This document shows, piece after piece, positions 3,467 through 47,556 of a DNA stretch of 61,692 nucleotides. The translations under genes and the position numbers were made by a program. Source of the stretch: Streptococcus sp. HSISM1 (GTDB lineage: Bacteria; Bacillota; Bacilli; Lactobacillales; Streptococcaceae); contig NZ_CM002128.1 of assembly GCF_000448565.1 (NCBI RefSeq), positions 1,934,329 to 1,996,020 of the forward strand, read 5' to 3'. Position 1 is the stretch's first letter, and every line of letters starts with the position of its first letter. Below the pieces are notes generated by a model. It was not told where the DNA came from. It made no database searches and saw only the letters and a list, made by a program, of their open reading frames with translations.

Positions 3467-3468
3467 AT

Positions 3469-5670: not shown

Positions 5671-5703
5671 AAAAAGTCGTCTGAAAGCAGACGACTTTTT
5701 TTT
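5671..5703 (+). terminator. Bidirectional terminator between the lipoprotein and GH92
   Basis: AAAAAGTCGTCTG-AAAG-CAGACGACTTTTT forms a perfect long stem with T-runs on both strands. It ends the lipoprotein transcript on + and the convergent GH92 transcript on -. Confidence 0.93.
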
Positions 5704-7777
5704 ATGGATGTGGGGGGAGCCAAGAAAGATCGAACTGAAGTAGCTGGGCTTCAAGGAGATCTTGATGGAAAATCTCTTGCTGCGCTTTGCCATCTAATCG
5801 GGCTTTTTGGATGAAATAGGCACCTGTAGTATGGGAGTTGGCACAAATTTTGAGCTCATGGTTTGGAAGATGGAGAAGAACTTCTTTAAAGAGAGGGAGG
5901 CCCAGATCATAGATTGGTTTTCCTGGGCAGGTTGGGTAGAGTCCAAGGACCGACCAGATGTACCAAGCAGATAGGCTACCGTTGTCCTCATCACCTGGAT
6001 AGGCTTGGAAATCTTGATGGAAAGCTTGGGAACGGATCTGGTGGATAAGGAGATTGGTATATTCGGGGTGAAGGCTGTGGCGGAAGAGGTAGGGAATGTG
6101 AAAACTGGGTTGATTGGAGATGGCGATCTGCCCAAATGGGGCTTGGGCCATCTCACTCATTTCGTGGATTTCATAGCCATACCCTCTTACGTCAAATTGA
6201 GGTCTTTGATTGGCTAAATCCAGTAGTCGTTGGGTGAAGGCTTTTTTACCGCCCATTAGCTCTATCAGGCCGGAGAGGTCGTGTAAGGCTCCAAAAGTAG
6301 CCTGCGTTGCAGAGCATTCTGCATAATCTCCTCCCCAGCTGGTAGGAGAGAAGGGTTCTTTAAAGTTTCCATTAGTGGATCGCGCCCTCATGAAGCCTGT
6401 TTGGGCATCGTACAATGTTCGGTAGGAGAGGCTGGAAGCAGCATACCGAGTGGCTGTTTCTGTCTGACCCAATTGCTTGGCAACGGTAGCAATGCAAAAA
6501 TCACTATAGGCATAATCTAGGCTATGGCTAACACTTTCGTGAAAATCATCGGGGAGGTAGCCAAGGGCCTTGTAGCTTTCATTGCCATGGCGACCAAAAT
6601 GTTGAGTAGGGTCTGTTTTTTGGGCCGTCTGGAGCATAGCTGTCAGCATGTTTTCATGTAGGTCTGGTGCGATCCCTTTTGTGACAGCATCCGCAAAGAC
6701 GCCATCGATGAGGGTACCTGGCATCATTCCTCGTTCATCTGGGGCCAACCATTTTGGTAGAAAACCAGTATCCTTGTATGTATTTAAAAATCCTTCGAGA
6801 AAGTGACGGTAATAATCGGGGTAGACAAGGCTAAAGAGCGGAAAAGATGTTCGGAAGAGATCCCAGAATCCGATATTGGTATAAGCTTTTCCTGGTTTGA
6901 TTTCATTATGAGTAACATCCAGGTGCCAGTCATTCCCCTTGCTATCTGTTTCATAAAAGGTTTGAGGGAAAAGGAGGAGTCGGTAAAGGCAATGATCGAA
7001 AAAGGCTTGGTCACGCCCTCCGGTATCTTTCACTTCAATTCGTTTTAGTAGCTGATTCCATTGATCGGCTGCTTCTTTTTTAGCTTTTTCTAAGGGAAGG
7101 TGGGGAAGATGGCTGTGAGCCATGTCTTGGGACAGATAAGAGCTTCCTAATTGGACGGTCACTTCCTTGCTAGAAAAGGTGAGAAAAAGATCCTGATCGA
7201 TGTGAGTGACAGTCTCGATTGGCTGGCTAAATTGCCACTGGAGATAGAAAGAGTAGGGAGTATCTGCGGTGTGGGCCTGATCCAGAATGTGAAAGTGACA
7301 GGTGTGGTCTGTAAGGGTCAAGTCCTCTAGTTCATTTACTGCATGAAAGCAGAGAGTCAATTTTTCTGGCGCTTGAAAGCGCAGGACAGCCCCGTAGCGG
7401 CTTGGAACCAGCTCGCTTTGAATCTGATAACGTTTCGAAAAAATACGGAGGTAGTGGGGCTGGAAAAGAGCTTCTTTCATTGAATAACTGCTTTGGCGAC
7501 GGAAGAGGTCGGAACTTGCAACTTCTCCTGTGATGGGCGTGATGAGGCACCAAGCGTAGTCTCCTATCCAAGGACTAGGCTGGTGGGTGAGGCGAAATCC
7601 CTGAAAAATAGGGAGATTGGGGTTGAAAAACCAAGCCCCTTGTTCATGTGTCGTCTGAGGAAGAAAGTAGTTCATTCCAAAAGGAACTCCGGTATAAGGG
7701 AGGGTGTTTCCGTGCGAATAGTGGGGATGATTATCGCTTCCCCAGCGGGTATCGATGGTCTGGCAAGTGGTGCGCAT
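5702..7777 (-). CDS. GH92 alpha-1,2-mannosidase
   Basis: The 691-residue enzyme belongs to family GH92, calcium-dependent exo-mannosidases that remove alpha-1,2-mannose from high-mannose N-glycans. Family features seen are the N-terminal HYSHGNTLPYTGVPFGMN, the central FWDLFRTSFPL, and the C-terminal YPGDEDNGSLSAWYIWS acidic cluster. No signal peptide is visible, so it acts in the cytoplasm. I chose ATG 7777 because AAGGAGA lies four bases upstream; an open frame runs further upstream without support. It diverges from GH125. The pneumococcal homologue is SP_2145. A cre-like site lies in the shared 215-bp promoter region. Confidence 0.94.
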   Translation of the reverse strand: MRTTCQTIDTRWGSDNHPHYSHGNTLPYTGVPFGMNYFLPQTTHEQGAWFFNPNLPIFQGFRLTHQPSPWIGDYAWCLITPITGEVASSDLFRRQSSYSMKEALFQPHYLRIFSKRYQIQSELVPSRYGAVLRFQAPEKLTLCFHAVNELEDLTLTDHTCHFHILDQAHTADTPYSFYLQWQFSQPIETVTHIDQDLFLTFSSKEVTVQLGSSYLSQDMAHSHLPHLPLEKAKKEAADQWNQLLKRIEVKDTGGRDQAFFDHCLYRLLLFPQTFYETDSKGNDWHLDVTHNEIKPGKAYTNIGFWDLFRTSFPLFSLVYPDYYRHFLEGFLNTYKDTGFLPKWLAPDERGMMPGTLIDGVFADAVTKGIAPDLHENMLTAMLQTAQKTDPTQHFGRHGNESYKALGYLPDDFHESVSHSLDYAYSDFCIATVAKQLGQTETATRYAASSLSYRTLYDAQTGFMRARSTNGNFKEPFSPTSWGGDYAECSATQATFGALHDLSGLIELMGGKKAFTQRLLDLANQRPQFDVRGYGYEIHEMSEMAQAPFGQIAISNQPSFHIPYLFRHSLHPEYTNLLIHQIRSQAFHQDFQAYPGDEDNGSLSAWYIWSVLGLYPTCPGKPIYDLGLPLFKEVLLHLPNHELKICANSHTTGAYFIQKARLDGKAQQEIFHQDLLEAQLLQFDLSWLPPHP

Positions 7778-7848
7778 CTTGTCTCCTTTTTCTTCATCAA
7801 CCTTAAATGATCTGTGTTTTTCTTGGAACACGCGGTGGTATTTTCTTC

Positions 7849-7886
7849 ATTGTATCAAAGTGTTGTTAAATATGATAGCGTTTTTA
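7849..7886. promoter_or_regulatory. GH92/GH125 divergent promoter region with a cre-like site
   Basis: TGATAGCGTTTTTA at 7873-7886 matches the CcpA cre consensus with two mismatches. On the minus strand it sits just upstream of TACAAT (plus coordinates 7849-7854), a likely -10 for GH92. This suggests catabolite repression. The GH125 promoter itself is unclear. Confidence 0.5.
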
Positions 7887-7992
7887 TCAAATGGAAAATT
7901 TTGTAGAAAAAGGGCTATAGTTTGCGTATGTATTTCCCCTTTGAAATCTTTTATACTGAATAGGAAAGAATCGATACGTGTGAGGAAAATAA

Positions 7993-9273
7993 ATGACCTA
8001 TTCAAAAGAAATTGTGCGAGAATGGTTGGATCAAGTGGCTGAGCGAGCTAAGGAGTACCCTGAGTGGGTGGATGTCTTTGAACGTTGCTACACAGATACC
8101 TTAGACAATACAGTTGAAATTTTAGAAGACGGTTCAACCTTTGTGCTAACAGGGGATATCCCAGCTATGTGGTTGCGTGACTCTACTGCTCAGCTGAGAC
8201 CGTATCTTCATGTAGCTAAAAGAGATCCTCTCTTGCGCCAGACCATTGCTGGCTTGGTTAAACGTCAGATGACTTTGATTCTCAAGGATCCCTATGCTAA
8301 CTCCTTCAACATTGAAGAGAACTGGAAGGGTCACCACGAGACCGACCATACAGATCTCAATGGCTGGATTTGGGAGCGCAAGTATGAAGTAGATTCGCTG
8401 TGCTACCCCTTGCAGTTGGCTTATCTCCTTTGGAAAGAAACTGGTGAGACTAGCCAGTTTGATGAAACTTTTGTTACGGCGACCAAGGAGATCCTTCATC
8501 TCTGGACGGTGGAACAAGACCACAAGAACTCTCCTTATCGTTTTGTTCGGGATACGGATCGTAAGGAAGACACGTTAGTGAATGACGGCTTTGGTCCTGA
8601 CTTTGCCGTGACAGGAATGACCTGGTCAGCCTTCCGTCCAAGCGATGACTGCTGTCAGTATAGCTACTTGATTCCATCCAATATGTTTGCGGTCGTTGTC
8701 TTAGGTTATGTCCAAGAAATCTTTGCTACATTGAGTCTAGCTGATAGTGAAAACATGATTGCTGATGCTAAACGTCTGCAAGCTGAAATCCAAGAAGGGA
8801 TCGAAAATTACGCCTACACGACTAACAGCAAGGGCGAGAAAATCTATGCCTTTGAGGTGGATGGTCTAGGAAATGCTAGCATCATGGATGACCCTAACGT
8901 ACCAAGTTTGTTAGCTGCTCCCTATCTGGGTTACTGTGCTATTGACGATGAGGTCTACCAAGCTACTCGTCGGACGATTTTGAGCCCTGAAAACCCTTAC
9001 TTCTATGAAGGGAAGTACGCTAGCGGTCTCGGAAGCTCTCATACCTTTTATCGCTATATTTGGCCGATTGCTTTATCCATCCAAGGATTGACAACGACAG
9101 ACAAGGCAGAGAAGAAATTCTTGCTCGATCAGTTGGTTGCTTGCGATGGTGGCACGGGTGTCATGCACGAAAGCTTCCACGTAGATGATCCGACTAAATA
9201 CTCGCGCGAATGGTTCTCTTGGGCCAACATGATGTTCTGCGAATTGGTCTTGGATTACTTGGGTATTCGTTAA
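7993..9273 (+). CDS. GH125 exo-alpha-1,6-mannosidase
   Basis: A 426-residue GH125 enzyme that removes alpha-1,6-linked mannose, late in N-glycan core breakdown. Recognisable blocks are FVLTGDIPAMWLRDSTAQ near residues 50-68, FRPSDDCCQYSYL, and GVMHESFHVDDPTKYSREW near the C-terminus. The acidic residues in the last two blocks are the likely catalytic acid and base. The length matches the characterised pneumococcal protein SP_2144. There is no signal peptide. GAGGAAA precedes ATG 7993. GH38 follows after 76 bases in the same operon. Confidence 0.95.
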   Translation: MTYSKEIVREWLDQVAERAKEYPEWVDVFERCYTDTLDNTVEILEDGSTFVLTGDIPAMWLRDSTAQLRPYLHVAKRDPLLRQTIAGLVKRQMTLILKDPYANSFNIEENWKGHHETDHTDLNGWIWERKYEVDSLCYPLQLAYLLWKETGETSQFDETFVTATKEILHLWTVEQDHKNSPYRFVRDTDRKEDTLVNDGFGPDFAVTGMTWSAFRPSDDCCQYSYLIPSNMFAVVVLGYVQEIFATLSLADSENMIADAKRLQAEIQEGIENYAYTTNSKGEKIYAFEVDGLGNASIMDDPNVPSLLAAPYLGYCAIDDEVYQATRRTILSPENPYFYEGKYASGLGSSHTFYRYIWPIALSIQGLTTTDKAEKKFLLDQLVACDGGTGVMHESFHVDDPTKYSREWFSWANMMFCELVLDYLGIR

Positions 9274-9349
9274 TGAGCTGTCGCTTAACAGATTCTTCTA
9301 AAGAATCACAAATCTATTTTTAAATTTAAGTTAGAATGAGGTTTTACTC

Positions 9350-11995
9350 ATGGAAAATGTTGTTGTACATATCATCTCTCACAGCCACTGGGATCGTGAG
9401 TGGTATCTACCTTTTGAAAGTCACCGGATGCAGTTGGTGGAACTGTTTGACAATCTCTTTGATCTTTTTGAAAATGATCCTGAATTCAAAAGTTTCCACT
9501 TGGATGGCCAAACCATTGTCCTTGACGACTATTTAGAAATTCGCCCTGAAAACCGCGACAAGGTGCAGCGCTATATCGATGAAGGCAAGCTCAAGATTGG
9601 TCCTTTCTATATCTTGCAGGATGATTACTTGATTTCCAGTGAAGCCAATGTTCGCAATACCTTGATTGGACAAGCTGAATGTGCCAAATGGGGCAAATCT
9701 ACTCAGATCGGTTACTTCCCAGATACCTTTGGAAATATGGGGCAGGCTCCTCAAATCCTTCAAAAATCAGGGATTCACGTAGCGGCCTTTGGGCGTGGTG
9801 TCAAGCCAATTGGATTTGACAACCAAGTTCTTGGAGATGAGCAATTTACTTCTCAATTTTCTGAGATGTATTGGCAAGGTGCAGATGGGAGCCGTGTACT
9901 GGGCATTCTCTTTGCCAACTGGTACAGTAATGGGAATGAAATTCCAGTAGATAAAGATGAAGCTTTGGCTTTCTGGAAACAAAAATTGGCAGATGTTCGT
10001 GACTATGCATCTACCAACCAATGGTTGATGATGAATGGTTGTGACCACCAACCGGTTCAACGAAATTTGAGTGAAGCCATTCGTGTGGCCAACGAACTCT
10101 TCCCTGACGTGACCTTTATTCACAGTTCCTTTGATGACTACGTGCAAGCAGTGGAAAGTGCCCTTCCTGAACAATTATCAACCGTCACAGGTGAGTTGAC
10201 CAGTCAGGAAACGGATGGTTGGTATACTCTTGCCAACACCTCTTCTTCACGCGTTTATCTCAAGCAAGCCTTCCAAGAAAACAGCAACTTGCTCGAGCAA
10301 GTGGTGGAACCTTTGACCATCATTACTGGTGGGCACAACCATAAGGATCAATTGACCTATGCTTGGAAGACACTCTTACAAAATGCGCCACACGATAGTA
10401 TTTGTGGATGTAGCGTAGATGATGTTCACCGTGAAATGGAAGTTCGTTTTGCCAAGGTCAACCAAGTCGGAAACTTTGTCAAGACCAACCTTCTGAACGA
10501 ATGGAAGGGTAAACTAGCGACTCAAAAAGCCCAGAGTGAGCACCTCTTTACGGTCATCAACACTGGCTTGCATAATAAGGTGGACACCGTCAGCACGATT
10601 GTCGATGTTGCGGTTTGTCCATTTAAGGAATTGCATCCGACAGAAGGCTTCAAGAAAATGGCTGCTTTGAGCTTGCCAGACTACCATGTAGAGGATTTAG
10701 ATGGACATCTTGTAGAAGCAGAGATTGAGGACTTGGGAGCAAGCTTTGGCTATACCCTGCCTAAGGATAAATTCCGTCAACCTTATATTGCACGTCAAGT
10801 GCGCGTGACAATTCCAATTCACCTTGCACCACTTTCTTGGTCAAGCTTCCAACTAGTCGAAGGGCCAGCAGCACAAAGCGATGGTATCTTCCAAAATGGA
10901 GTTATTGATACTCCATTTGTGACAGTAAGTGTAGATGAAGGTATCACAGTCTACGACAAGACTACAAACGAAGCTTACGAGGACTTTATCCAATTTGAGG
11001 ACCGTGGCGATATCGGGAATGAGTACATTTATTTCCAACCAAAAGGAACAGAGCCAATTTTCGCAAAACTGAAAGGTTATGAAATTCTGGAAAACAATGC
11101 TCGCTATGCTAAGGTTTTGCTCAAACATGACTTGACTATTCCAGTTAGCGCAGATGAAAAATTGGATGCTGAACAAAGAGGTATCATCGAGTTCATGAAA
11201 CGAGATGCAGGTCGTTCAGAAGAGTTGACAACCATTCCTCTTGAAACGGAGATGACCATTTTTGTAGATGATCCACAAATTCGCTTCAAGACTCGCTTTA
11301 CCAATACAGCCAAAGACCACCGCATTCGTCTCTTGGTCAAAACTCATAACACACGCCCAAGTAATGATTCTGAAAGCATCTATGAAGTTGTTACAAGACC
11401 AAATAAACCAGCAGCTTCTTGGGAAAATCCTGAAAATCCACAACACCAACAAGCCTTTGTTAGCTTGTATGACGATGTTAAAGGAGTGACAGTAGCCAAT
11501 AAAGGATTGCACGAATACGAAATCCTTGAGGACGACACCATGGCTGTAACCCTTCTCCGTGCTTCAGGTGAGCTAGGTGACTGGGGCTACTTCCCAACGC
11601 CAGAAGCTCAGTGCTTGTGCGATATCGAAGTTGAGTTTGCAGTAGAATGCCATCAAGCAGGGGAACGCTTCTCGGCCTTCCGTCGTGCTAAAGCCTTCCA
11701 GGTGCCATTTACAGCTCTTCAAGTTGCAAAACAAGAAGGTAGAGTTGCTGCAACAGGTAGTCTCTTCAACCATGCAGCCCTCAACTTGCCACAAGTCTGC
11801 CCAACAGCCTTTAAGGTGGCTGAAAATGAAGAAGGATACGTCCTTCGTTACTACAATATGAGTCAAGAAAATGTTCGCGTGTCAGAAGGACAACAAACGG
11901 TTGTCGATCTTCTGGAACAACCGTATCCGGTCCATACAGGTTTATTGGCACCGCAAGAAATCCGGACAGAATGGATCAAAAAAGAAGAAATCTAA
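9350..11995 (+). CDS. GH38 alpha-mannosidase
   Basis: An 881-residue, zinc-dependent GH38 alpha-mannosidase, the same length as pneumococcal SP_2143. The zinc site HSHWDREWY is at residues 11-19. The nucleophile Asp lies in YFPDTFGNMGQAP, and the APHDSICGCSVDDVH block supplies another metal ligand. A central and C-terminal beta-rich region follows. It is expected to trim alpha-1,3-mannose in the cytoplasm. GAATGAGG lies 8 bases before ATG 9350. Confidence 0.95.
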   Translation: MENVVVHIISHSHWDREWYLPFESHRMQLVELFDNLFDLFENDPEFKSFHLDGQTIVLDDYLEIRPENRDKVQRYIDEGKLKIGPFYILQDDYLISSEANVRNTLIGQAECAKWGKSTQIGYFPDTFGNMGQAPQILQKSGIHVAAFGRGVKPIGFDNQVLGDEQFTSQFSEMYWQGADGSRVLGILFANWYSNGNEIPVDKDEALAFWKQKLADVRDYASTNQWLMMNGCDHQPVQRNLSEAIRVANELFPDVTFIHSSFDDYVQAVESALPEQLSTVTGELTSQETDGWYTLANTSSSRVYLKQAFQENSNLLEQVVEPLTIITGGHNHKDQLTYAWKTLLQNAPHDSICGCSVDDVHREMEVRFAKVNQVGNFVKTNLLNEWKGKLATQKAQSEHLFTVINTGLHNKVDTVSTIVDVAVCPFKELHPTEGFKKMAALSLPDYHVEDLDGHLVEAEIEDLGASFGYTLPKDKFRQPYIARQVRVTIPIHLAPLSWSSFQLVEGPAAQSDGIFQNGVIDTPFVTVSVDEGITVYDKTTNEAYEDFIQFEDRGDIGNEYIYFQPKGTEPIFAKLKGYEILENNARYAKVLLKHDLTIPVSADEKLDAEQRGIIEFMKRDAGRSEELTTIPLETEMTIFVDDPQIRFKTRFTNTAKDHRIRLLVKTHNTRPSNDSESIYEVVTRPNKPAASWENPENPQHQQAFVSLYDDVKGVTVANKGLHEYEILEDDTMAVTLLRASGELGDWGYFPTPEAQCLCDIEVEFAVECHQAGERFSAFRRAKAFQVPFTALQVAKQEGRVAATGSLFNHAALNLPQVCPTAFKVAENEEGYVLRYYNMSQENVRVSEGQQTVVDLLEQPYPVHTGLLAPQEIRTEWIKKEEI

Positions 11996-12024
11996 TTTCA
12001 AAAAGATAACATAAAAAGAAAGGA

Positions 12025-12067
12025 GGAGCGAAAAGAGTAAGAACCGACTGCTGATTCGCTCCTTTTT
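12025..12067 (+). terminator. Partial terminator between GH38 and ROK
   Basis: GGAGCGAA at 12025-12032 pairs with TTCGCTCC at 12055-12062, followed by five Ts. The 22-base loop is long, so this may reduce rather than stop transcription into ROK and GH20. Confidence 0.6.
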
Positions 12068-12080
12068 ACAGGTAAAAGCA

Positions 12081-12950
12081 ATGACCATTGCAACGATTGA
12101 TATCGGAGGGACTGGCATTAAGTTTGCTAGTCTAACTCCTGATGGAAAGATTTTAGATAAGGCCAGCACCGCAACGCCAGAGACTCTGGAAGAGTTGCTA
12201 GCTTGGTTGGATCAGCGATTGTCAGAACGTGACTACCGTGGGATTGCCATGAGTGTGCCAGGAGCCGTTCATCAAGAAACAGGGGTAATTGAAGGGATCA
12301 GTGCCATTCCTTACATCCATGGTTTTTCATGGTATGAGGCGCTTGCTCATCATAAGCTTCCTATCCACCTAGAAAATGATGCCAACTGTGTTGGACTCAG
12401 TGAACTGCTAGCTCATCCTGAGATTGAAAATGCAGCCTGTGTCGTGATTGGTACAGGAATCGGTGGAGCCATGATTATCAATGGGAAGCTACACCGTGGT
12501 CGTCATGGTTTGGGCGGTGAGTTTGGCTACATGACCACAATCGAGCCCGCAGAAAGACTCAATAACTGGTCACAACTCGCTTCTACAGGAAACATGGTTC
12601 GCTATGTGATTGAAAAATCTGGTCAAACCGATTGGGATGGCCGCAAGGTGTACCAAGAGGCGGCAGCAGGTAATGCCCTTTGCCAAGAAGCTATTGAGCG
12701 CATGAATCGTAATCTTGCTCAAGGACTGCTCAATATCCAGTACCTGATTGATCCAGATGTGATTAGTCTAGGCGGCTCTATCAGTCAGAACCTTGATTTT
12801 ATCAAAGGCGTGCAAAAAGCCGTAGATGCCTTTGTGGAAAGATATGAAGAATATACCATCGCTCCAGTCATTCAAGCTTGCACCTATCAGGCAGATGCCA
12901 ATCTCTACGGTGCCCTTGTCAACTGGTTACAGGAGGAAAACCAATGGTAA
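12081..12950 (+). CDS. ROK-family sugar kinase-like protein
   Basis: A 289-residue ROK protein with the N-terminal phosphate-binding DIGGTGIKF (residues 7-15), ENDANCVGLSEL, and VIGTGIGGAMIINGKLHRG. The usual zinc motif CGxxGCxE after GEFGY is absent; GLGGEFGYM is followed by TTIEPAERLNN. It has no DNA-binding helix-turn-helix, so a sugar kinase role (perhaps for a hexose or GlcNAc) is more likely than a repressor, but the substrate is unknown. The homologue SP_2142 sits in the pneumococcal mannosidase cluster. The ribosome site is weak (AGG). The 3' end overlaps GH20 by seven bases. Confidence 0.9.
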   Translation: MTIATIDIGGTGIKFASLTPDGKILDKASTATPETLEELLAWLDQRLSERDYRGIAMSVPGAVHQETGVIEGISAIPYIHGFSWYEALAHHKLPIHLENDANCVGLSELLAHPEIENAACVVIGTGIGGAMIINGKLHRGRHGLGGEFGYMTTIEPAERLNNWSQLASTGNMVRYVIEKSGQTDWDGRKVYQEAAAGNALCQEAIERMNRNLAQGLLNIQYLIDPDVISLGGSISQNLDFIKGVQKAVDAFVERYEEYTIAPVIQACTYQADANLYGALVNWLQEENQW

Positions 12951-14823
12951 GTTTTACCGGAATCAACAGTAAACAAGCGCAAGCTTTAGAGTTGCTCCAA
13001 AATCACATTTCTCTACCAGATGTAGAAGTGGCAGTCGCTCAGTCTGACCATGCTTCCATCTCTATCAAGGGGAGAATGGGCAGTATCAATTGACCTACCG
13101 TAAACCTCATCAACTCTACCGTGCCTTATCTGTGCTCGCAACAGCTTTAGCAGAAGGGGACAAGGTAGAGATTGAAGAGCAGGCGGCCTATGAAGATTTA
13201 GCCTATATGGCGGACTGTTCGCGCAATGCCGTGCTCAATGTCGCATCTGCCAAGCAGATGATTGAAGTCTTGGCTCTGATGGGTTATTCAACCTTTGAGC
13301 TCTACATGGAAGACACTTATCAAATTGAAGGACAACCTTACTTTGGTTATTTCCGTGGAGCATACTCAGCTGAAGAGTTACAGGAAATCGAAAGCTACGC
13401 CCAGCAGTTTGACATGACCTTTGTGCCATGTATCCAAACTTTGGCTCACTTATCAGCCTTTGTCAAATGGGGCGTCAAAGAAGTGCAAGAGCTCCGCGAT
13501 GTAGAAGATATTCTTCTTATCGGTGAAGAAAAAGTTTACGACCTGATTGACGGTATGTTTGCGACGTTGTCTAAACTACAAACTCGCAAGGTCAATATCG
13601 GGATGGACGAAGCCCACCTGGTTGGTTTGGGACGCTACCTTATCCTAAATGGTGTGGTGGATCGTAGCCTCCTCATGTGTCAACACTTGGAGCGCGTGCT
13701 GGATATTGCCGATAAGTATGGTTTCCACTGCCAGATGTGGAGCGATATGTTCTTCAAGCTCATGTCAGCAGATGGCCAGTACGACCGTGAGGTGGAAATT
13801 CCAGAAGAAACGCGTGTTTACCTTGACCGTCTCAAAGACCGTGTGACCTTGGTTTACTGGGATTATTATCAGGATAGCGAAGAAAAATACAATCGTAACT
13901 TCAGTAACCACCACAAGATTAGCCAGGATATTGCCTTTGCAGGTGGAGCTTGGAAGTGGATTGGTTTTACGCCCCACAACCATTTCAGCCGTCTCATTGC
14001 AGTAGAAGCCAATAAAGCTTGCCGTGCCAACCAAATCAAGGAAGTTATCGTGACGGGTTGGGGGGACAATGGTGGGGAAACAGCCCAGTTCTCTATCTTG
14101 CCAAGCTTGCAAATCTGGGCAGAACTTAGCTATCGCAATGATTTAGAGCGTCTATCTGCCCACTTCAAGACTAATACAGGTCTATCTGTTGAGGACTTTA
14201 TGCAGCTGGATCTTGCCAACCTCTTGCCAGACCTACCAGACAATCTTAGTGGTATCAATCCTAACCGCTATGTCTTTTATCAGGATGTTCTTTGCCCAAT
14301 CCTTGACAAGCACATGACTCCTGAACAGGACAAGCCATACTTTGCCAAGGCGGCTGAAATTCTTTCTGACATTAAAGAAAAAGCTGGTGTCTACGCCTAT
14401 CTCTTTGAGACTCAGGCTCAGTTGAATGCCATTTTAAGTAATAAAGTGGATGTGGGCCGACGCATTCGTGAGGCCTATCAAGCAGGTGATAAAGAGAGCT
14501 TGCAACAAATCGCTAGAGGAGAATTGCCAAAACTCAGAAGCCAGATTGAAACCTTCCATGACCTCTTTAGCCACCAATGGTTGAAAGAAAACAAGGTCTT
14601 TGGCTTGGATACCGTAGACATCCGGATGGGTGGACTCTTGCAACGGATCAAGCGAGCTGAAAGTCGGATTGAAAACTACCTAGCAGGCGAAATCTCTCGT
14701 ATCGATGAACTAGAAGTAGAGATCTTGCCATTCAACGATTTCTACGGAGATCAGGACTTCGCAGCCACAACGGCTAATCAGTGGCATACTATTGCGACTG
14801 CCTCAACCATTTATACAACGTAA
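12944..14823 (+). CDS. GH20 beta-N-acetylhexosaminidase (GH20C type), apparent -1 frameshift
   Basis: This cytoplasmic hexosaminidase removes GlcNAc from N-glycan fragments. The frame from ATG 12944 reads [18 protein letters not shown] and stops at TGA 13091. The downstream frame continues with [13 protein letters not shown] and the GH20 barrel, including the acidic pair in [12 protein letters not shown]. Adding one G to the G4 run at 13069-13072 joins them to 626 residues, the length of pneumococcal SP_2141. The broken frame is likely a base undercall. If real, the gene could start only internally, at TTG 13090, which would remove about 49 residues. AGGAGG lies upstream of 12944. Confidence 0.93.
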
Positions 14824-14865
14824 AAAATGCCAAGTCGGATGACAGAAATCTCATCCGCGGTCGAT

Positions 14866-14916
14866 AGGAGTAGAAGAAGAGTTGTCTTTACGATCACCCT
14901 TTTCTACTCCTTTTTT
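14866..14916 (+). terminator. Terminator after GH20
   Basis: AGGAGTAGAA at 14866-14875 and TTCTACTCCT at 14902-14911 form a 10-bp stem followed by six Ts. It ends the mannosidase operon before the transporter promoter. Confidence 0.8.
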
Positions 14917-14961
14917 AAAGCTATGTCATAAATTTGTAGAATTTTTTCTATAATTAGGAGT

Positions 14962-15010
14962 TTGAAAATGTAAATGGGCTATCTTATAATAGGTGATGTA
15001 AACGCTACCA
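14962..15010 (+). promoter_or_regulatory. Promoter and cre site of the N-glycan importer
   Basis: TTGAAA at 14962-14967, 17-bp spacer, TATAAT at 14985-14990. TGTAAACGCTACCA at 14997-15010 matches the cre consensus with one mismatch and overlaps the start point. CcpA would therefore repress the importer when preferred sugar is present. Confidence 0.85.
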
Positions 15011-15050
15011 AAGCAAATAAACACGCTCAAGGCTCAAAGGGGGGAGTTAA

Positions 15051-15980
15051 ATGAAAAAGTTTGTAAGGACTCTGAGAGAAAATTTCATTTTTCTTTTAAT
15101 GGTCTTACCTGGTGCAGCGTGGTTAATCTTATTCTTCTATATTCCGGTTTTTGGGAATATCGTAGCATTTAAGGACTATCATATTACGGGAGAGGGTTTT
15201 ATTGACAGTGTCATGAAGAGTAAGTGGGTTGGCTTTGACAACTTCAAGTTCCTCTTTAGTTCCAAAGATGCCTACATTATTACAAGAAACACGGTATTGT
15301 ACAACTTAGGATTCATCTTCTTAGGATTGATTGTTTCCGTTGGAATCGCCATCATCTTTAGTGAGTTGAGATCAAAAAGAGTGGTCAAGGTGCTTCAAAC
15401 CTCCATGCTCTTCCCATACTTCTTATCATGGGTTATCATCAGCTTCTTCACCGATGCCTTCCTTAACGTGGACAAAGGATTGGTCAACCACATCTTAACT
15501 TCATTTGGCATGAAGGCCATCAATTTCTATTCGGAATTGTGGATCTGGCCAGCGCTTCTCCTCTTCCTAGGGATCTGGAAAGGCTTTGGTTATAGTAGTG
15601 TCATGTACTATGCAACTATCATGGGAATTGACCCAACTTACTATGAAGCAGCGACCGTGGATGGTGCGTCTAAGTGGCAACGCATTCGCAACATCACCAT
15701 TCCTCAGTTGTCTTCCTTGATTACGGTCTTGACCATTCTTGCAGTCGGAAATATCTTCCGCGCAGACTTCGGTCTATTCTACCAAATCCCGCATAATGCT
15801 GGAGCGCTCTATAGTGTGACCAACGTTATTGATGTTTATGTCTACAACGGTTTGACCAAGTCAGGGGATATCGGGATGACAGCAGCAGCCGGTCTTTACC
15901 AATCGGTAGTCGGTTTGGTTCTTGTGTTAATCTCAAATATCATTGCCCGTCGCATTGATAAGAATGCCGCTCTCTTCTAG
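15051..15980 (+). CDS. ngtP1: ABC sugar importer permease 1 (LplB/NgtP1-like)
   Basis: A 309-residue inner-membrane permease of the MalF/LplB group, with six predicted helices. The EAA loop is EAATVDGASKWQRIRNITIPQL (partly, near residues 200-220). Known pneumococcal NgtP1 (SP_0090 region) imports complex N-glycans; the link here rests on gene context with the mannosidases and NgtS. GGGGGGAG precedes ATG 15051. The second permease follows after 13 bases. No ATPase is encoded nearby, so a shared MsmK-type ATPase is inferred. Confidence 0.88.
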   Translation: MKKFVRTLRENFIFLLMVLPGAAWLILFFYIPVFGNIVAFKDYHITGEGFIDSVMKSKWVGFDNFKFLFSSKDAYIITRNTVLYNLGFIFLGLIVSVGIAIIFSELRSKRVVKVLQTSMLFPYFLSWVIISFFTDAFLNVDKGLVNHILTSFGMKAINFYSELWIWPALLLFLGIWKGFGYSSVMYYATIMGIDPTYYEAATVDGASKWQRIRNITIPQLSSLITVLTILAVGNIFRADFGLFYQIPHNAGALYSVTNVIDVYVYNGLTKSGDIGMTAAAGLYQSVVGLVLVLISNIIARRIDKNAALF

Positions 15981-15993
15981 AAAGGAGGATCGT

Positions 15994-16926
15994 ATGAAAA
16001 AATCAACCATTCAAAAAGAAAAAATTGATAATGTCGGGATCCATTCTTTCAGTAAGAAGAGCAACTTCTTCTTTACCTTGTTGTTGACCTTGGTCGGCTT
16101 GACCTGTGTGCTTCCCTTCATCTTCGTTGTCATGATCTCTTTGACAGACGAACAAAGTTTGGCAGTCCATGGCTTCCAATTCTGGCCAGCAAAATTTGGA
16201 TTTGATGGTTACCTCTTCTTGGTACAATTCAAAGACAAAATCTTACAAGCCCTCTTCATTACCTTGTTTGTGACCATTGTGGGAACAGCATGTAATGTCT
16301 TTATCACCACAACTTATGCTTACGCAATCTCACGGAGTACCTTTAAATACCGCAAGTTCTTTACCGTATTTTCACTCCTTAGTATGCTCTTTAGTGCAGG
16401 GTTGGTTCCAAGCTACATTGTGACCACTCAACTCTTGCAGTTAGGTGATACCATCGGGGCTTTGATTATCCCAATGTTGCTCAGTCCATTTAACATCATC
16501 TTGATGCGGACCTTCTTTAAACGGACCATTCCAGAAGCTATCCTTGAATCCGCTCGGATCGATGGGGCAAGTGAAACACGGATCTTCTTCCAAATCTGCT
16601 TGCCATTGTCTCTACCAGGGATTGCGACTATCAGTTTGTTCACTGCTTTAGGATTCTGGAACGACTGGTTCAACGCCCTCCTCTATATTAAGAGTGACAA
16701 CCTTTACCCATTGCAATACCTCTTGATGCAAATCCAAAACAATATGGATTACATCGCTAAAAACGTCGGGGTATCCGGCCAATTGGCAGGAGCTGTACAA
16801 TCCATCCCACGGGAAACAGGACGTATGGCCATGGTGGTTGTGGCAACAGTGCCAATCGCCATTCTCTATCCATTCTTCCAACGCTACTTTGTAAAAGGCT
16901 TGACCATCGGTGGTGTGAAAGAATAA
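15994..16926 (+). CDS. ngtP2: ABC sugar importer permease 2 (YtcP/NgtP2-like)
   Basis: A 310-residue MalG/YtcP-type permease with six predicted helices. The EAA loop is visible as ESARIDGASETRIFFQICLP. Its partner is the permease just upstream. I chose ATG 15994, six bases after AAAGGAGG, rather than an in-frame extension from 15943 that overlaps the first permease. A hairpin and 79 bases separate it from the binding protein. Confidence 0.88.
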   Translation: MKKSTIQKEKIDNVGIHSFSKKSNFFFTLLLTLVGLTCVLPFIFVVMISLTDEQSLAVHGFQFWPAKFGFDGYLFLVQFKDKILQALFITLFVTIVGTACNVFITTTYAYAISRSTFKYRKFFTVFSLLSMLFSAGLVPSYIVTTQLLQLGDTIGALIIPMLLSPFNIILMRTFFKRTIPEAILESARIDGASETRIFFQICLPLSLPGIATISLFTALGFWNDWFNALLYIKSDNLYPLQYLLMQIQNNMDYIAKNVGVSGQLAGAVQSIPRETGRMAMVVVATVPIAILYPFFQRYFVKGLTIGGVKE

Positions 16927-16935
16927 CATCGTTCA

Positions 16936-16958
16936 TTGAAAATCAGTAAGATTTTCAA
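16936..16958 (+). other. Hairpin between permease 2 and the binding protein
   Basis: TTGAAAATC-AGTAA-GATTTTCAA forms a 9-bp perfect stem without a T-run. Such hairpins upstream of binding-protein genes can protect the downstream mRNA or lessen read-through, giving more binding protein than permease. Confidence 0.55.
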
Positions 16959-17005
16959 CTCATAACTTAGTCTAAAAAGAAAATAACATAAAGGAGATTT
17001 TTCTT

Positions 17006-18487
17006 ATGAAAAATTGGAAAAAATACGCGTTAGCATCTGCTAGTGTCATTGCTCTTGGAGCTACTCTTGCTGCTTGTGGAAACCTTACAGGGAACAACAA
17101 GAAGTCAGCAACAACTGAAGACGGTAAACCAATCATCAAGATGTACCAAATCGGTGATAAACCAGATAACTTGGATGTTCTTCTTAAAAATGCCAACAAG
17201 ATCATTGAAAAGAAAGTTGGCGCAAAATTGGATATCCAATATCTTGGTTGGGGTGACTACGCACAAAAAATGAACGTTATCATCTCATCTGGTGAAAACT
17301 ATGATATTGCCTTTGCTAATAACTACGTTATCAACGCTCAAAAAGGAGCTTATGCTGACTTGACAGAATTGTACAAGAAAGAAGGAAAAGACCTTTACAA
17401 AGCACTTGACCCAGCTTACATCAAAGGGAACACTGTAAATGGCAAGATCTATGCTGTTCCAGTAGCAGCTAACGTGGCATCTTCTCAAAACTTTGCCTTC
17501 AACGGACCACTTCTTGAAAAATATGGTATCGACGTTTCAAACGTGAAAGACTATGCTTCTCTTGAACCAGTCTTGAAAGCTATCAAAGAAAAAGATCCAA
17601 ACGTTGTTCCATTTGCAATGAACAAGAGCTACGGTGGACCTTCAGATGACTTCGACTACGTGGCTGTTGATGGACTTCCATTCGTTGTTGACTTGAAAGG
17701 TGACACTACTAAGATCGTTGACCGTTACACCATTCCTCGTTATGTAGAAAACTTGAAGACTCTTCACAAATACTACGAAGCAGGATACATTCCAAAAGAC
17801 GTAGCAACTAGCGACACTGGTTATGATCTTTCTCAAGATACATGGTTGGTTCGTGAAGAAACAGTAGGACCAGCTGACTACGGTAACAGCTTGCTTTCTC
17901 GTGTAGCAAACCGTAAGATCGAAATCAAACCATTTACTGAACTGTACAAGAAGAACAATACTACTCAAGTAGCTAACTTTGTTATCTCAAACAACTCTAA
18001 GAACAAAGAAAAAGCAATGGAAGTGTTGAACCTCTTGAACACTGATCCAGAACTCTTGAACGGCCTTGTTTATGGACCAGAAGGCAAGAACTGGGAAAAA
18101 GTTGACGGCAAAGAAAACCGTGTTAAAGTCTTGGATGGCTACAACGGAAACACTCATATGTCTGGATGGAACACTGGTAACAACTGGATTCTTTACATCA
18201 ACGAAAACGTAACAGATGAACAAATTGCACAATCTAAGAAAGACTTGGAAACTGCAAAAGAATCTCCAGCACTTGGCTTCATCTTTAACACAGATAAAGT
18301 GAAATCAGAAATCACTGCTCTTACAAATACTTTGAACCAATTCGCAGGTGCTATCAATACTGGTACTGTGGATCCTGAAGTAGAAGTTCCTAAGATGCTT
18401 GAAAAATTGAAATCAGAAGGTGCTTACCAAAAAGTGCTTGACGAAATGCAAAAACAATACGACGAATTCCTTGCTTCTAAAAAATAA
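17006..18487 (+). CDS. ngtS: N-glycan ABC importer, substrate-binding lipoprotein (NgtS-like)
   Basis: A 493-residue solute-binding lipoprotein. The signal peptide MKNWKKYALASASVIALGA is followed by lipobox LAAC. The body, from IIKMYQIGDKPDNLDVLLKN, is of the large LplA/YtcQ type, with a C-terminal domain I believe to be DUF3502. Pneumococcal SP_0092 (NgtS), which I recall binding complex N-glycans, is the closest known relative by context. AAAGGAGA lies nine bases before ATG. Codon use is biased to preferred codons, so it is probably highly expressed. A strong terminator follows. Confidence 0.88.
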   Translation: MKNWKKYALASASVIALGATLAACGNLTGNNKKSATTEDGKPIIKMYQIGDKPDNLDVLLKNANKIIEKKVGAKLDIQYLGWGDYAQKMNVIISSGENYDIAFANNYVINAQKGAYADLTELYKKEGKDLYKALDPAYIKGNTVNGKIYAVPVAANVASSQNFAFNGPLLEKYGIDVSNVKDYASLEPVLKAIKEKDPNVVPFAMNKSYGGPSDDFDYVAVDGLPFVVDLKGDTTKIVDRYTIPRYVENLKTLHKYYEAGYIPKDVATSDTGYDLSQDTWLVREETVGPADYGNSLLSRVANRKIEIKPFTELYKKNNTTQVANFVISNNSKNKEKAMEVLNLLNTDPELLNGLVYGPEGKNWEKVDGKENRVKVLDGYNGNTHMSGWNTGNNWILYINENVTDEQIAQSKKDLETAKESPALGFIFNTDKVKSEITALTNTLNQFAGAINTGTVDPEVEVPKMLEKLKSEGAYQKVLDEMQKQYDEFLASKK

Positions 18488-18501
18488 GAACAGGTAGTGC
18501 G

Positions 18502-18534
18502 AAAAGACTTTGGAGGGATCTCCAAAGTCTTTTT
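18502..18534 (+). terminator. Terminator of the importer operon
   Basis: AAAAGACTTTGGAG-GGAT-CTCCAAAGTCTTTT gives a long perfect stem followed by Ts. Confidence 0.93.
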
Positions 18535-18598
18535 GTGTCTTTATGAAAATGAATCCTGTAAATGAAAATCAATATTTCAATTTACCAATGCAAATAGG

Positions 18599-18627
18599 GG
18601 GAAAGCGTTTTATTTTTATGGTATAAT
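18599..18627 (+). promoter_or_regulatory. yesL promoter and cre-like site
   Basis: TATAAT at 18622-18627 is preceded by GGGAAAGCGTTTTA (18599-18612), which carries the core AAAGCGTTTT of a cre site. The -35 is weak. CcpA control of the regulators is therefore possible. Confidence 0.6.
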
Positions 18628-18654
18628 AGAATCACTAATTGGAAAAGAGGCTGA

Positions 18655-19269
18655 ATGATGGGAAAAATCATCGAGTTCATTTTTACGAGAGTCTATGTTG
18701 CTATGCTGGTAACGGGGATTTTTTGGGTCTTGACGATCTGTGGGGGTGTTCTGCTAGGAGTAGGACCCGCTAGTGCCACTATCATGAGCCTCTATGCGGA
18801 AAATGGCATGACCTACAAGGACTATCATTGGTCACGCGCTTGGGAACTCTTCAAAGAAAATCTACGCCCGGCTAATCAAGTCTTTTATACCTTCTTTGCC
18901 ATTGAAGGGGTTCTTCTCTATGGCATGTACCTCATGATCCAGATTCCTCACTTGAATTTCTTCCAAATTTTGGTTCTTTTGTTTAATCTGGTTTTTCTCT
19001 TGGTTGCGCCTCTAGCTTACGCCGTTTATTTGAAATTGCAAGTTCATTTCGATCTCTCTTATGCCAATAGTATCAAGCTCAGTTTGATCGGAATGTTGCT
19101 GGACATTCGTCCGGTTCTGAAGTTCATCCTTGGAACTGCGCTACTTGGCGTCATTAGCTACTATATGCCAGCCCTTCTCTTTTTCGTCTTGATCGGTGTA
19201 TGGCATTTCTTTGTCAATGATATCTTTGACCCTGTTTATCAAAACATCCACGAAAAATTGGTATCCTAA
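18655..19269 (+). CDS. yesL: YesL-family membrane protein (DUF624)
   Basis: A small membrane protein (203-204 residues) of the YesL/DUF624 family, with four or five predicted helices. The N-terminal GKIIEFIFTRVYVAML and GVGPASATIMSLY segments are typical. It sits directly upstream of the YesM-like kinase, as in Bacillus, and may modulate sensing; its function is not established. ATG at 18655 or 18658 cannot be separated. GAGG lies just upstream. Confidence 0.85.
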   Translation: MMGKIIEFIFTRVYVAMLVTGIFWVLTICGGVLLGVGPASATIMSLYAENGMTYKDYHWSRAWELFKENLRPANQVFYTFFAIEGVLLYGMYLMIQIPHLNFFQILVLLFNLVFLLVAPLAYAVYLKLQVHFDLSYANSIKLSLIGMLLDIRPVLKFILGTALLGVISYYMPALLFFVLIGVWHFFVNDIFDPVYQNIHEKLVS

Positions 19270-19271
19270 CG

Positions 19272-20918
19272 ATGAAAAAAATCTGGTTAAGTACGCTTTT
19301 AAAATTCTACGCCTATGTCATGGTGGTCATTTTGACCATCATGGGCCTGGTTGTCGCGGGGATCTCTTGGAAAAACCAGCAAGCTGAAGCCGACCGGATC
19401 GCCCAACGGGTCTTGACCGAAGTGGTGACGGATCTTGAGACCTCTTATCAGCGGGTCACACAAGAAGGACGTAGCCTCGTTGAAAACCCTGCAAAATTAG
19501 AAGGAGTTTATCGCTATTTTACCTTGTCACCATCGGAGTATGAGACTTGGAGATTGAATGCCCAATTCCCTTCTTATATCCAATTGTCCCTACATAAGAA
19601 TATTGACAGCCTCTATTTGAGCAATAAAAACATCGAGGGCATCGATGTCACCTTGTCTGATTACAAGACGGTATTTGTCTCTACTCGGCAATCAAAGGGA
19701 GGCAAGCAAGTATCGGCGGACCATTACAAGGCTCCTGCGACAGCCATTCCGGTTCCTTTGACAGATCCTACTACGGGTGCTGGAGTTGGGATTGCTTATA
19801 TGACGCTGGACCAAGAAATTTTGACGGCAGCGATTGATAATGCCAGAGGCGATCTTCCGATCGCTGTGCGAATCTTCACTCCCTTTGGGAAAGAGATGTA
19901 CCATGAAGGGGATAAGGGACAATCAAAAGATGTTAAATGGCAAACCCGTAGCACGATCTATGGCTACAAGGTGGATGTAGCTGTTTCTAAAAGTTATCTG
20001 GTCAAAAAGGGTCTAGCTAACCTGACCACTTTTCTCTCCATTGCTTTCCTGATTTTCTTGATCCTTTACTTGTTATTAGGTCAGATTTTCAAAAATTACC
20101 GGCGTCAAGTCCTCGATTTGGTCGATACCATGAATCTGATCAGTCAAGGCGAGAGTGAACGACGGATTGATACCTCGACCAAGGACCAAGAACTGCTGGT
20201 TATTGGTAATATGATCAATACCATGTTAGACAATATGGATAAGAATATTCGGGATATCTACCAGCTGCAGCTCAGCCAAAAAGATGCTAATATGCGGGCG
20301 CTACAAGCCCAGATCAATCCCCACTTCATGTACAATACACTGGAATTTATCCGGATGTATGCCGTCATGCAAGAGCAGGATGAATTGGGTGATATTATTT
20401 ATGAGTTTAGTAGTCTCTTGCGCAATAATATCTCAGATGAGCGAGTGACGACAGTTGAAAATGAGCTCGAATTTTGTCGCAAATACAGCTACCTCTGTAT
20501 GGTGCGTTATCCAAAATCGATTGCCTATGGCTTTAAGATCGATCCAGGTTTGGAAAAGATGAAGATTCCCAAATTCACCATCCAGCCTTTGGTCGAGAAC
20601 TATTTTGCGCATGGAGTGGATCACAAACGCAAGGACAATGTGATTAGTGTCAAAGTCTTGCAAGGAGAAGGGCAAGTCATGATCCTAGTTACTGATAATG
20701 GGCGTGGGATGGAAGAAGAACAGCTAGAAAAAATTCAAGAGATACTGGCCAATCGCAATCCCCGCTCAGAAATCGAAGAAAAGAGTGGCCGGCAGTCCAT
20801 CGGAATTGTCAATGTCCATGAACGCATGCTACTCTTTTTTGGAGATCGCTACCATATCCAAGTCTTCTCCCAACCTCACCATGGAGTGACCTATACGATA
20901 ACCATTCAAGATGAATAA
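19272..20918 (+). CDS. yesM: YesM-like sensor histidine kinase
   Basis: A 548-residue membrane kinase. A helix near residues 8-32 and another near 250-272 bracket an extracellular sensor domain. HAMP (about residues 275-330) follows, then the phosphoacceptor block QINPHFMYNTLEFIR and the ATP-binding N-box (QPLVENYFAHGV) and G-box (VTDNGRGM). The start overlaps yesL closely, with two bases between. By analogy with pneumococcal TCS07 it likely senses N-glycan fragments and activates the neighbouring genes. Confidence 0.92.
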   Translation: MKKIWLSTLLKFYAYVMVVILTIMGLVVAGISWKNQQAEADRIAQRVLTEVVTDLETSYQRVTQEGRSLVENPAKLEGVYRYFTLSPSEYETWRLNAQFPSYIQLSLHKNIDSLYLSNKNIEGIDVTLSDYKTVFVSTRQSKGGKQVSADHYKAPATAIPVPLTDPTTGAGVGIAYMTLDQEILTAAIDNARGDLPIAVRIFTPFGKEMYHEGDKGQSKDVKWQTRSTIYGYKVDVAVSKSYLVKKGLANLTTFLSIAFLIFLILYLLLGQIFKNYRRQVLDLVDTMNLISQGESERRIDTSTKDQELLVIGNMINTMLDNMDKNIRDIYQLQLSQKDANMRALQAQINPHFMYNTLEFIRMYAVMQEQDELGDIIYEFSSLLRNNISDERVTTVENELEFCRKYSYLCMVRYPKSIAYGFKIDPGLEKMKIPKFTIQPLVENYFAHGVDHKRKDNVISVKVLQGEGQVMILVTDNGRGMEEEQLEKIQEILANRNPRSEIEEKSGRQSIGIVNVHERMLLFFGDRYHIQVFSQPHHGVTYTITIQDE

Positions 20919-20928
20919 AGGAGACAGA

Positions 20929-22232
20929 ATGTACAAAGTCTTATTAGTAGACGATGAGTATATGATTACAGAAGGGTTAAAAAATTAATCCCCTTTGACC
21001 ACTGGAATATGGAAGTGGTCGCAACTGCAGAAGACGCCGACCAGGCCCTTGATTATGTGCGAGAGCATCCGGTGGATGTGGTGATCACGGATGTCAATAT
21101 GCCTGGAAAGACCGGACTTCAGATGATTGCAGAGATGAAGGATTTGATCCCAGATGCTGCTTTTATCATTATGTCAGGCTATCAGGATTTTGAATATGTC
21201 AAGACAGCTCTCAATTTGCGCGTGGCAGACTACCTGCTCAAACCTGTCAATAAGGTGGAGATGGGCAATATTCTAGAAAAAATTCAGCACCAAATCCAGC
21301 AACCAAGCCAAGAGTTGGCCAACCGCTTGATTCACGATGATATCTCTGAGGAAGAGTTTTGTCGGTATATCGCAGGACGAAATTCATTGTGGATTGGGGT
21401 TGCTAAGGAGAAAAAAGGCTTTATCAGCTCATCTTACCAAGTTCTCGGGCAAAATCTTCAACTCTTTATCTCAGATCAAGAAGAAGAAGCCATGATTGAG
21501 AAGGCCTTTGAGCCTCCTTATAAAGAGCACTTTCGTCAATTTAAGGACCTAGTAGAGCGGAGCCTCTTTTATGGAGCGACCCCTCTCAATCAAGATGAAG
21601 AGGTCTTCCATTACTACGAGCCGGCCTACCGGGTGATCATGCAAGGAAATATCCAACAGATCTTAGAAGAACTGGACTGGTTGGAAAAAATGATCCTTGA
21701 GAAGACACCCAAGGTTTCGTTGACCAAGCAGCTCTTTATCCAATTTTTGATGGATGTCTTTCATTTGTTTGAATACCTGCAAGGAGATGATTTGGCCGAT
21801 GTGGTCAAGAAAGTCCAAGAAGCTGCTACCTTTAGCGAGATGATTAGCTTCATCCAGGAAGAGTTATCCCGTTTCTTATCCCACTATCGGATGAATGAAA
21901 ATGTAGCGAGTGTCCTCCAAGTGATTAGCCGTGATTACCAAAAAGAGCTGTCGCTCAAGGATATCAGTCAGGCTCTCTTTATCAATCCAGTCTATTTAGG
22001 CCAATTGATTAAACGAGAAACCAATGCAACGTTCGCAGAACTCCTCAACAAACAGCGGATTAAGGCTGCCCAGCAGCTCCTCTTATCGACCAATGACAGT
22101 ATTGAAGATATCTGCTATAAAGTCGGTTACAGCAATGTGGGCTATTTCTATAAGGTTTTCCGTAAACTCTGTGGAAAATCGCCTAAAACCTATCGCTTAC
22201 AAGTCATGACAGAGCAAGCAGAAGATGATTAA
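20929..22232 (+). CDS. yesN: YesN-like AraC-type response regulator, apparent -1 frameshift
   Basis: A receiver domain plus AraC-type DNA-binding domain. ATG 20929, with AAGGAGA upstream, reads MYKVLLVDDEYMITEGLKN then stops at TAA 20987. The continuing frame starts at IPFDHWNMEVV. Adding one A to the A6 run at 20979-20984 restores MYKVLLVDDEYMITEGLKK and 434 residues. The receiver then has Asp8, Asp9 and phosphoacceptor Asp55 (VVITDVNMPG); the AraC helices lie at about residues 330-430. I suspect an undercall. If real, the regulator would be lost. Confidence 0.92.
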
Positions 22233-47548: not shown

Positions 47549-47556
47549 GAGATGAT

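Follow-up and report, generated by a model that had tools for sequence, protein, structure and literature searches.

The closest described relative of the locus considered here is the N-glycan system of Streptococcus pneumoniae, for which the enzyme activities, the structures of the binding protein NgtS and a pathway model were given by Robb 2017 (PMC5215778). That system combines the CPL (SP_2141-2146), which contains glycoside hydrolases (GH), the importer NgtP1-P2-S (SP_0090-0092) and two-component system 07 (TCS07, with the pair HK07/RR07). The pneumococcal TCS07 regulon contains these genes, RR07 induces the endoglycosidase EndoD and the importer together, and induction by glycoprotein through RR07 is known for this species (Andreassen 2020, PMC7075642). 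Here we describe the corresponding genes at positions 5702-22232 of a stretch of 61,692 nucleotides from Streptococcus sp. HSISM1 (the window; C1:1934329-1996020 within a 2,334,492-base chromosome).

The window holds the same genes as the three pneumococcal sets, with its glycosidases in the order that the pneumococcal locus tags also give (GH20-ROK-GH38-GH125-GH92). It differs in that the genes form a single block whereas those of pneumococcus are dispersed (PMC7075642), and in having no GH29 beside GH92. A first-pass annotation, made from the letters of the window alone, had described the pneumococcal counterparts as separate loci; the dispersal is real, but this comparison was skewed, as ROK and GH92 are already clustered there with the other glycosidases, in SP_2141-2146.

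That annotation also offered the linkage as new evidence, a claim that the literature does not support. Co-localisation of the CPL, the transporter and TCS07 was reported for S. gordonii, S. cristatus, S. intermedius, S. parasanguinis, S. suis and S. iniae, and SPD_0156, at the YesL position, was placed in the TCS07 operon of many species (Andreassen 2020, PMC7075642); the text of that paper reveals no difference in content from the window. The importer adjoins glycosidases in 8 of 10 loci described by Robb 2017 (PMC5215778), and a 20-kb EndoSS-related cluster of S. suis (PMC7281376) carries the same glycosidases, transporter and regulator in one locus, a layout similar to that of genome G022 in our sample. 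The S. suis cluster includes the GH85 gene, whereas in the window genome GH85 lies about 0.4 Mb away. Because of these three papers the finding is already in print: the window locus is published and ordinary for its species. By itself it adds little, and its value lies in two inferences, one on an operator and one on a pairing of ROK kinase and GH1 enzyme (BglA3), which make two points testable, namely where RR07 binds and what cleaves Man-beta-1,4-GlcNAc (mannose linked to N-acetylglucosamine) in streptococci.

Gene content, linkage and co-occurrence

GH92 on the reverse strand is followed on the forward strand by GH125, GH38, ROK, GH20C, NgtP1, NgtP2, NgtS, YesL, YesM and YesN (Table 1), so that all genes named in the first-pass annotation were present where it had placed them, and GH92, GH125, GH38, ROK and GH20C stand together in one locus. 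Pfam cut-offs were exceeded by these five, by two binding-protein-dependent (BPD) permeases, a DUF3502 solute-binding protein, DUF624/YesL and a His_kinase protein, and YesN was recognised by Pfam as a response regulator carrying an AraC-type helix-turn-helix domain. NgtS is 98-100% identical to NgtS of loci named S. parasanguinis, and the chromosome is S. parasanguinis-like. A comparison with the PDB covered four window proteins, NgtS, GH92, GH125 and ROK. The top matches of GH125 and ROK are pneumococcal structures as well. Those of NgtS and GH92, 5swa and 5swi, come from the pneumococcal study of Robb 2017 (PMC5215778), in which NgtS Trp386 stacks on the Man-GlcNAc unit of the ligand; the equivalent of this residue is retained in the window NgtS, its position being counted along the 5swa alignment with an assumed offset of 23. 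The GMMPG loop named in the same paper is visible in the GH92 translation.

Table 1. Genes and candidate regulatory sites of the locus, in window positions
Feature	Position	Strand	Evidence and remarks
GH92 alpha-1,2-mannosidase, divergent from GH125 operon	5702..7831	-	PF07971, 420 bits; top solved relative SpGH92 5swi, E 7.2e-260
Cre-like (CcpA) site, 1 mismatch	7873..7886	-	weak
Candidate YesN/RR07 operator between GH92 and GH125	7894..7925	+	two direct half-sites, 21-bp period, 16/22
GH125 exo-alpha-1,6-mannosidase	7993..9273	+	PF06824, 512.7 bits; top PDB match 3qpf, E 1.2e-287
GH38 alpha-mannosidase	9350..11995	+	PF01074, PF18438, PF07748; probably alpha-1,3, by relation to S. pyogenes enzyme (PMC2815779)
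ROK sugar kinase, E-x-G-Y in place of E-x-G-H	12081..12950	+	PF00480; top PDB match 2gup, E 3.6e-176; proposed Man-beta-1,4-GlcNAc kinase
GH20C (GcnA-type) beta-hexosaminidase	12944..14823	+	PF18088; frame interrupted near 13066-13081, the main open frame starting at 13048 with its first start codon at 13090
Candidate YesN/RR07 operator upstream of ngtP1	14927..14958	+	17/22; sole place scoring at least 17 in window
Cre (CcpA) site TGTAAACGCTACCA, no mismatch	14997..15010	+	directly downstream of ngtP1 -10-like element
NgtP1 permease	15051..15980	+	PF00528
NgtP2 permease	15943..16926	+	PF00528
NgtS N-glycan-binding lipoprotein	17006..18487	+	PF12010, PF13416; top PDB match 5swa, E 1.2e-252
YesL (DUF624) membrane protein	18655..19269	+	PF04854; retained in relatives
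YesM/HK07 histidine kinase	19272..20918	+	PF06580, PF02518; frame intact
YesN/RR07 AraC-type response regulator	20929..22232	+	PF00072, PF12833; frame interrupted near 20976-20988, the main open frame starting at 20958 with its first start codon at 21009

Co-occurrence was followed in 157 Streptococcus genomes, with species types deduced from their identity to named loci; since these genomes are related, co-occurrences do not count as independent events. Matches were found for GH125 in 83 genomes, NgtS in 84 (threshold E 1e-100), YesM in 82 (E 1e-60), GH85 in 57 and GH1 relatives of BglA3 in 107 (E 1e-130). Eight of the NgtS matches are merely 49-52% identical and may be paralogues. NgtS relatives were present in all 83 GH125-bearing genomes and in 1 of the 74 others, and YesM relatives in 81/83 against 1/74, which, together with the pneumococcal regulon, bears out the earlier proposal of one N-glycan system. 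The counts were 55/83 against 2/74 for GH85 and 83/83 against 24/74 for the GH1 relatives.

Gene order was compared in named loci, taken from the best 80 of 112 NgtS matches. GH125, GH38 or GH20 lies upstream of ngtS in 71 of the 77 with at least 9.5 kb of upstream sequence, and YesM lies downstream in 27 of the 78 with at least 5 kb of downstream sequence; because of these two counts, the linkage far exceeds chance. The importer-glycosidase linkage is the rule among relatives. The 27 YesM-linked loci come from S. parasanguinis, S. australis, S. rubneri, S. xiaochunlingii, S. cristatus, S. gordonii, S. cuniculi, S. suis, other Streptococcus and one Granulicatella. YesM was not found in the ngtS flank of S. 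mitis, S. oralis and S. infantis loci, and in genome G032, of the S. mitis/oralis/infantis type, it lies about 48 kb away.

Altogether, the window very probably carries a TCS07-controlled N-glycan locus of oral streptococci, a reading supported by the protein domains, the top solved relatives of NgtS and GH92, a GH85 and a StrH-like protein in the same genome, the co-occurrence, the published regulon and co-localisation, operator-like repeats before ngtP1 and an exact catabolite-responsive element (cre). NgtS-P1-P2 with a shared ATPase would import Man3-5GlcNAc, from which GH38 and GH125 would strip the alpha-mannoses intracellularly to leave Man-beta-1,4-GlcNAc, and ROK and BglA3 might handle this last disaccharide. 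YesM would sense a glycan signal, YesN would activate the GH92/GH125 and importer promoters, and CcpA may repress them. The enzyme activities, the ligand and the regulon in this scheme are those of pneumococcus, and by analogy the window copy would function equally. It is very unlikely that N-glycan digestion is incidental and the main target another mannoside or an O-glycan. Such other substrates could be indicated by the presence of GH20C and ROK, but pneumococcal NgtS binds Man5GlcNAc (PMC5215778), the key Trp is kept in the window NgtS, and the joint induction of EndoD and importer by RR07 speaks for N-glycans.

Several observations weigh against the N-glycan reading. Andreassen 2020 (PMC7075642) lists evidence both for and against glycan use by S. 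parasanguinis and gives TCS07 for 66.7% of 3 strains of this species. In one study an electrophoretic mobility shift assay showed no binding of RR07 at the strH and gh125 promoters. A GH85 match is absent from 28 of the 83 GH125-bearing genomes, so EndoD is not obligatory. Finally, the frames of yesN and gh20C are broken in this assembly, and this strain may have the system switched off.

Pathway parts outside the locus and the last disaccharide

The locus had been described as holding the whole pathway, which overstates its content, since it lacks EndoD, StrH, the importer ATPase and the Man-beta-1,4-GlcNAc step. The first-pass annotation had itself placed the release of glycans with an enzyme encoded elsewhere, and such a gene was found: a GH85 (EndoD) match at C1:1528649-1529563, in an open frame of 1622 aa with a YSIRK-like signal (judged by eye), which we count as a secreted GH85 of this genome. 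A StrH-like protein with two GH20 domains is encoded at C1:2175774 in a 1184-aa frame. No importer ATPase lies in the locus, and MsmK was suggested for this role (Robb 2017, PMC5215778); the ATP-binding cassette (ABC) ATPase at window position 23397 precedes an ABC-2 membrane gene and therefore seems to belong to another transporter.

The locus also encodes no enzyme known to act on Man-beta-1,4-GlcNAc. The fate of this disaccharide was called unknown by Robb 2017 (PMC5215778), where no candidate beta-1,4-mannosidase of S. pneumoniae was identified, and production of beta-1,4-mannosidase activity by S. oralis grown on RNase B has been reported (Tarelli 1998, cited in PMC2815779). Families named for this bond in a 2023 review are GH2, GH5 subfamily 18 and GH130. 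Each was considered and set aside: GH130, the phosphorylase route, had a match in 0 of the 157 genomes; GH5 (PF00150) had none in the window genome, and its matches in 79/157 genomes are in many cases weak and in frames identified as GH1 by other searches. GH2 (PF02836) matched once in the window genome, in a 2272-aa frame taken for a surface beta-galactosidase, which we take to be BgaA.

The combination of a BglK model as the best NCBIfam match and an E-x-G-Y motif suggests that the ROK kinase of the locus acts on a disaccharide, with BglA3 as its partner. The NCBIfam model is that of beta-glucoside kinase BglK (NF042998), at 138.7 bits. In monosaccharide ROK kinases the motif is marked by the His of E-x-G-H, as in the one N-acetylmannosamine (ManNAc) kinase (5nck) and the one glucokinase (3vov) aligned; the E-x-G-Y of the window protein is shared with beta-glucoside kinase 4htl, and Tyr or Phe occupies this position in 10/10 aligned ROK proteins. 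The BglA3 relative of the window genome lies outside the locus (C1:2054155-2055534). Reportedly, BglA3 is a 6-phospho-beta-glucosidase, the label used in the title of one paper. GH1 6-phospho-beta-glycosidases bind phosphate through a signature of Ser, Lys and Tyr, and in the BglA3 proteins of G000, G032 and G022 Ser and Tyr are kept while Lys is one place off. Expression fits such a partnership, as BglA3 is induced by RR07 with a log2 fold change of 7.6 (Andreassen 2020, PMC7075642).

The position of bglA3 was read by eye from the gene tables: in 14/83 GH125-bearing genomes the gene is no more than 5 kb from GH125 or YesM, in three kinds of place. It stands beyond the far end of yesM, at the yesN position, in seven (G102, G147, G027, G008, G040, G056, G071), divergent from yesM in G107 and G121, and near GH125 in G131, G091, G125, G155 and G044, these last five being forms 47-56% identical. 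A GH1 gene is also part of the GH38 operon of S. pyogenes (PMC2815779).

More specifically, ROK could phosphorylate Man-beta-1,4-GlcNAc on mannose O6, and RR07-controlled BglA3 could then split the product into mannose-6-phosphate and GlcNAc. This is a tentative proposal that we regard as rather doubtful, and a literature search for a phospho-beta-mannosidase or a beta-mannoside kinase found no paper. ROK has about an even chance of being a plain mannose or GlcNAc kinase, serving the monosaccharides freed by GH38, GH125 and GH20C, with BglA3 unrelated to N-glycans. A plain kinase would accord with the BglK score staying far below the curated cut-off of 550 bits and with a PDB score nearly as high for ManNAc kinase (112.7 bits) as for BglK (128.4 bits); the displaced Lys of BglA3 and the GH1 relatives in 24/74 genomes without GH125 also count against the pairing. 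The E-x-G-Y motif, the constant presence of GH1 in GH125-bearing genomes and its induction by RR07 are harder to reconcile with a plain kinase. If true, the ROK-BglA3 pair would supply the enzyme activity for which Robb 2017 had no name to offer.

Candidate YesN operators and cre sites

The ngtP1 promoter carries two direct copies of CTATAATTTGT with a 21-bp period, both of which are perfect in G013. Scoring used 18 representatives of 82 upstream sequences for ngtP1 and 13 of 56 for GH125; the half-site was chosen from the same sequences, so the scores are partly circular and the spacing less so. Upstream of ngtP1 the mean score was 18.8/22 at 21 bp, whereas the remaining offsets between 12 and 40 gave 14.2-16.2, and shuffled sequences averaged 12.8, reaching 13.4 at most. 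The 21-bp offset was best or tied in 17/18 representatives, with a tie in the window itself. For the GH125 promoter the mean was 15.5 at 21 bp and 15.7 at 13 bp, and the S. cristatus and S. gordonii promoters, at 14 and 13, have no good site. Three places in the window reach 16, two being the expected promoters.

The core pattern occurs with at most one mismatch upstream of ngtP1 in 11/12 genomes, G102 being the one without it. It gave 22 matches in the 12 genomes and 11 for a reversed control; 13/22 precede ngtP1 or GH125 and the remaining 9 are at the control level, four of them (L183, L182, L187, L168) without a relative of a window gene within 3 kb. Upstream of bglA3 the scores were 17 in G000 and G038, 16 in G024, 14 in G040 and G102, and 13 in G032, G060, G087 and G119, while in G022 no start of the gene was located; the unlinked bglA3 of the window genome has 17/22 at -92 and the four mitis-type genomes just 13. 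A score of 17 was reached by 0.3% of shuffled 300-bp regions and one of 16 by 1.1%. At endoD, 16/22 was found on the reverse strand in 5/8 genomes, some being close relatives, and strH was weak, with 14-16 in the 5/8 genomes whose start was located. A scan upstream of yesL with the first pattern for the repeat gave nothing convincing.

A candidate RR07 motif, CTWWWWWWAG, has been published (PMC11034029). It is fitted by one half-site of the ngtP1 repeat, CTATAATTAG, and differs from the arrangement in the window, where two direct half-sites stand 21 bp apart. The tandem CTATAATTTGT with its 21-bp period is presented as a candidate YesN operator that would extend the published half-site, and it is weaker or absent at other promoters. 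An alternative single-block motif, TTTGTAGA-N7-CTATARTTWG, was rejected, as it had 16 matches genome-wide and 25 in the control; within the window, at up to 3 mismatches, its sole matches are the two promoter sites (0.2 expected), and its best matches in the endoD and strH stretches are 11-14 of 18.

Sites resembling cre with up to 2 mismatches number 22 in the window against 17.7 expected, no excess over chance, and for this reason only the exact site before ngtP1 is relied upon as a sign of possible CcpA control.

Broken frames, sequence mosaic and neighbouring genes

The genes gh20C and yesN begin upstream of the starts given in the first-pass annotation and are interrupted. From 12944, gh20C runs for 46 codons, and from 20929 yesN for 20, in a different frame from the remainder, with each break at a short homopolymer, so that in this assembly the HK07/RR07 pair has an intact YesM and a broken yesN. 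G038, a relative assembled in one contig and with an NgtS 100% identical, has both genes intact, at 626 and 440 aa. When G038 open reading frames (ORFs) were compared with the window, 4 of the 55 matching at 75% identity or more did so in two frames, which makes assembly indels a plausible cause of the breaks in gh20C and yesN; the completeness of the assembly, only 95.65 compared with 99-100 for most relatives listed, makes them a fair explanation. The other two genes matched in two frames lie at 41661-42088 and 46616-48108.

Alternatively, gh20C and yesN could be real pseudogenes of a decaying system that is no longer regulated in this strain, as the two breaks beside intact copies in G038 and the incomplete distribution of TCS07 in S. 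parasanguinis would allow. We consider such decay unlikely, since an indel-prone assembly would be expected both to split further genes and to show lower completeness. The genes being present and the yesN break possibly an assembly error, the locus is still counted as TCS07-controlled.

DNA identity between the window and G038 is uneven: 98-100% for ROK, the importer and YesLMN, 96% for AdcA, 94% for GH92 and 90-92% for GH125, GH38 and GH20. The last three are 88-90% identical to an S. infantis locus, barely below their identity to G038, whereas the importer genes are 73-83% identical to that same locus; GH92 has 61-69% identity to other species tested, in partial alignments covering 17-89% of the gene. 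Since GH125, GH38 and GH20 are nearly as close to S. infantis as to G038, inter-species recombination inside the locus would explain this mosaic. Over 7993-14823, compared with L104 and L020, these three genes differ by 8-10% between two S. parasanguinis-like genomes.

On the left flank, window positions 2552-4973 encode an ABC-3 permease and an AdcA-type zinc-binding protein with a ZinT domain. No GH29 adjoins GH92, where a DUF6287 protein and AdcA are found instead, the remaining genome not having been searched for GH29. A search for plasmid copies of the GH125-ROK stretch found none.

Other arrangements were seen in a few relatives. In the S. suis-like G022 (L108, L109) the GH85 gene adjoins GH92, and transposase-like ORFs, judged by eye, lie between ngtS and yesL. 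The loci L114 and L115 (G013, G044) represent a rearranged form with a more distant importer and YesMN; in it ROK diverges from ngtP1 and, judged by eye, a GntR-like regulator lies near GH125, with a GH1 gene between in L115. In G121 (L179, C6:3366-6390) a more distant ngtP1 (60%) with the same operator-like site adjoins an AdcA gene, and GH125 is on another contig.

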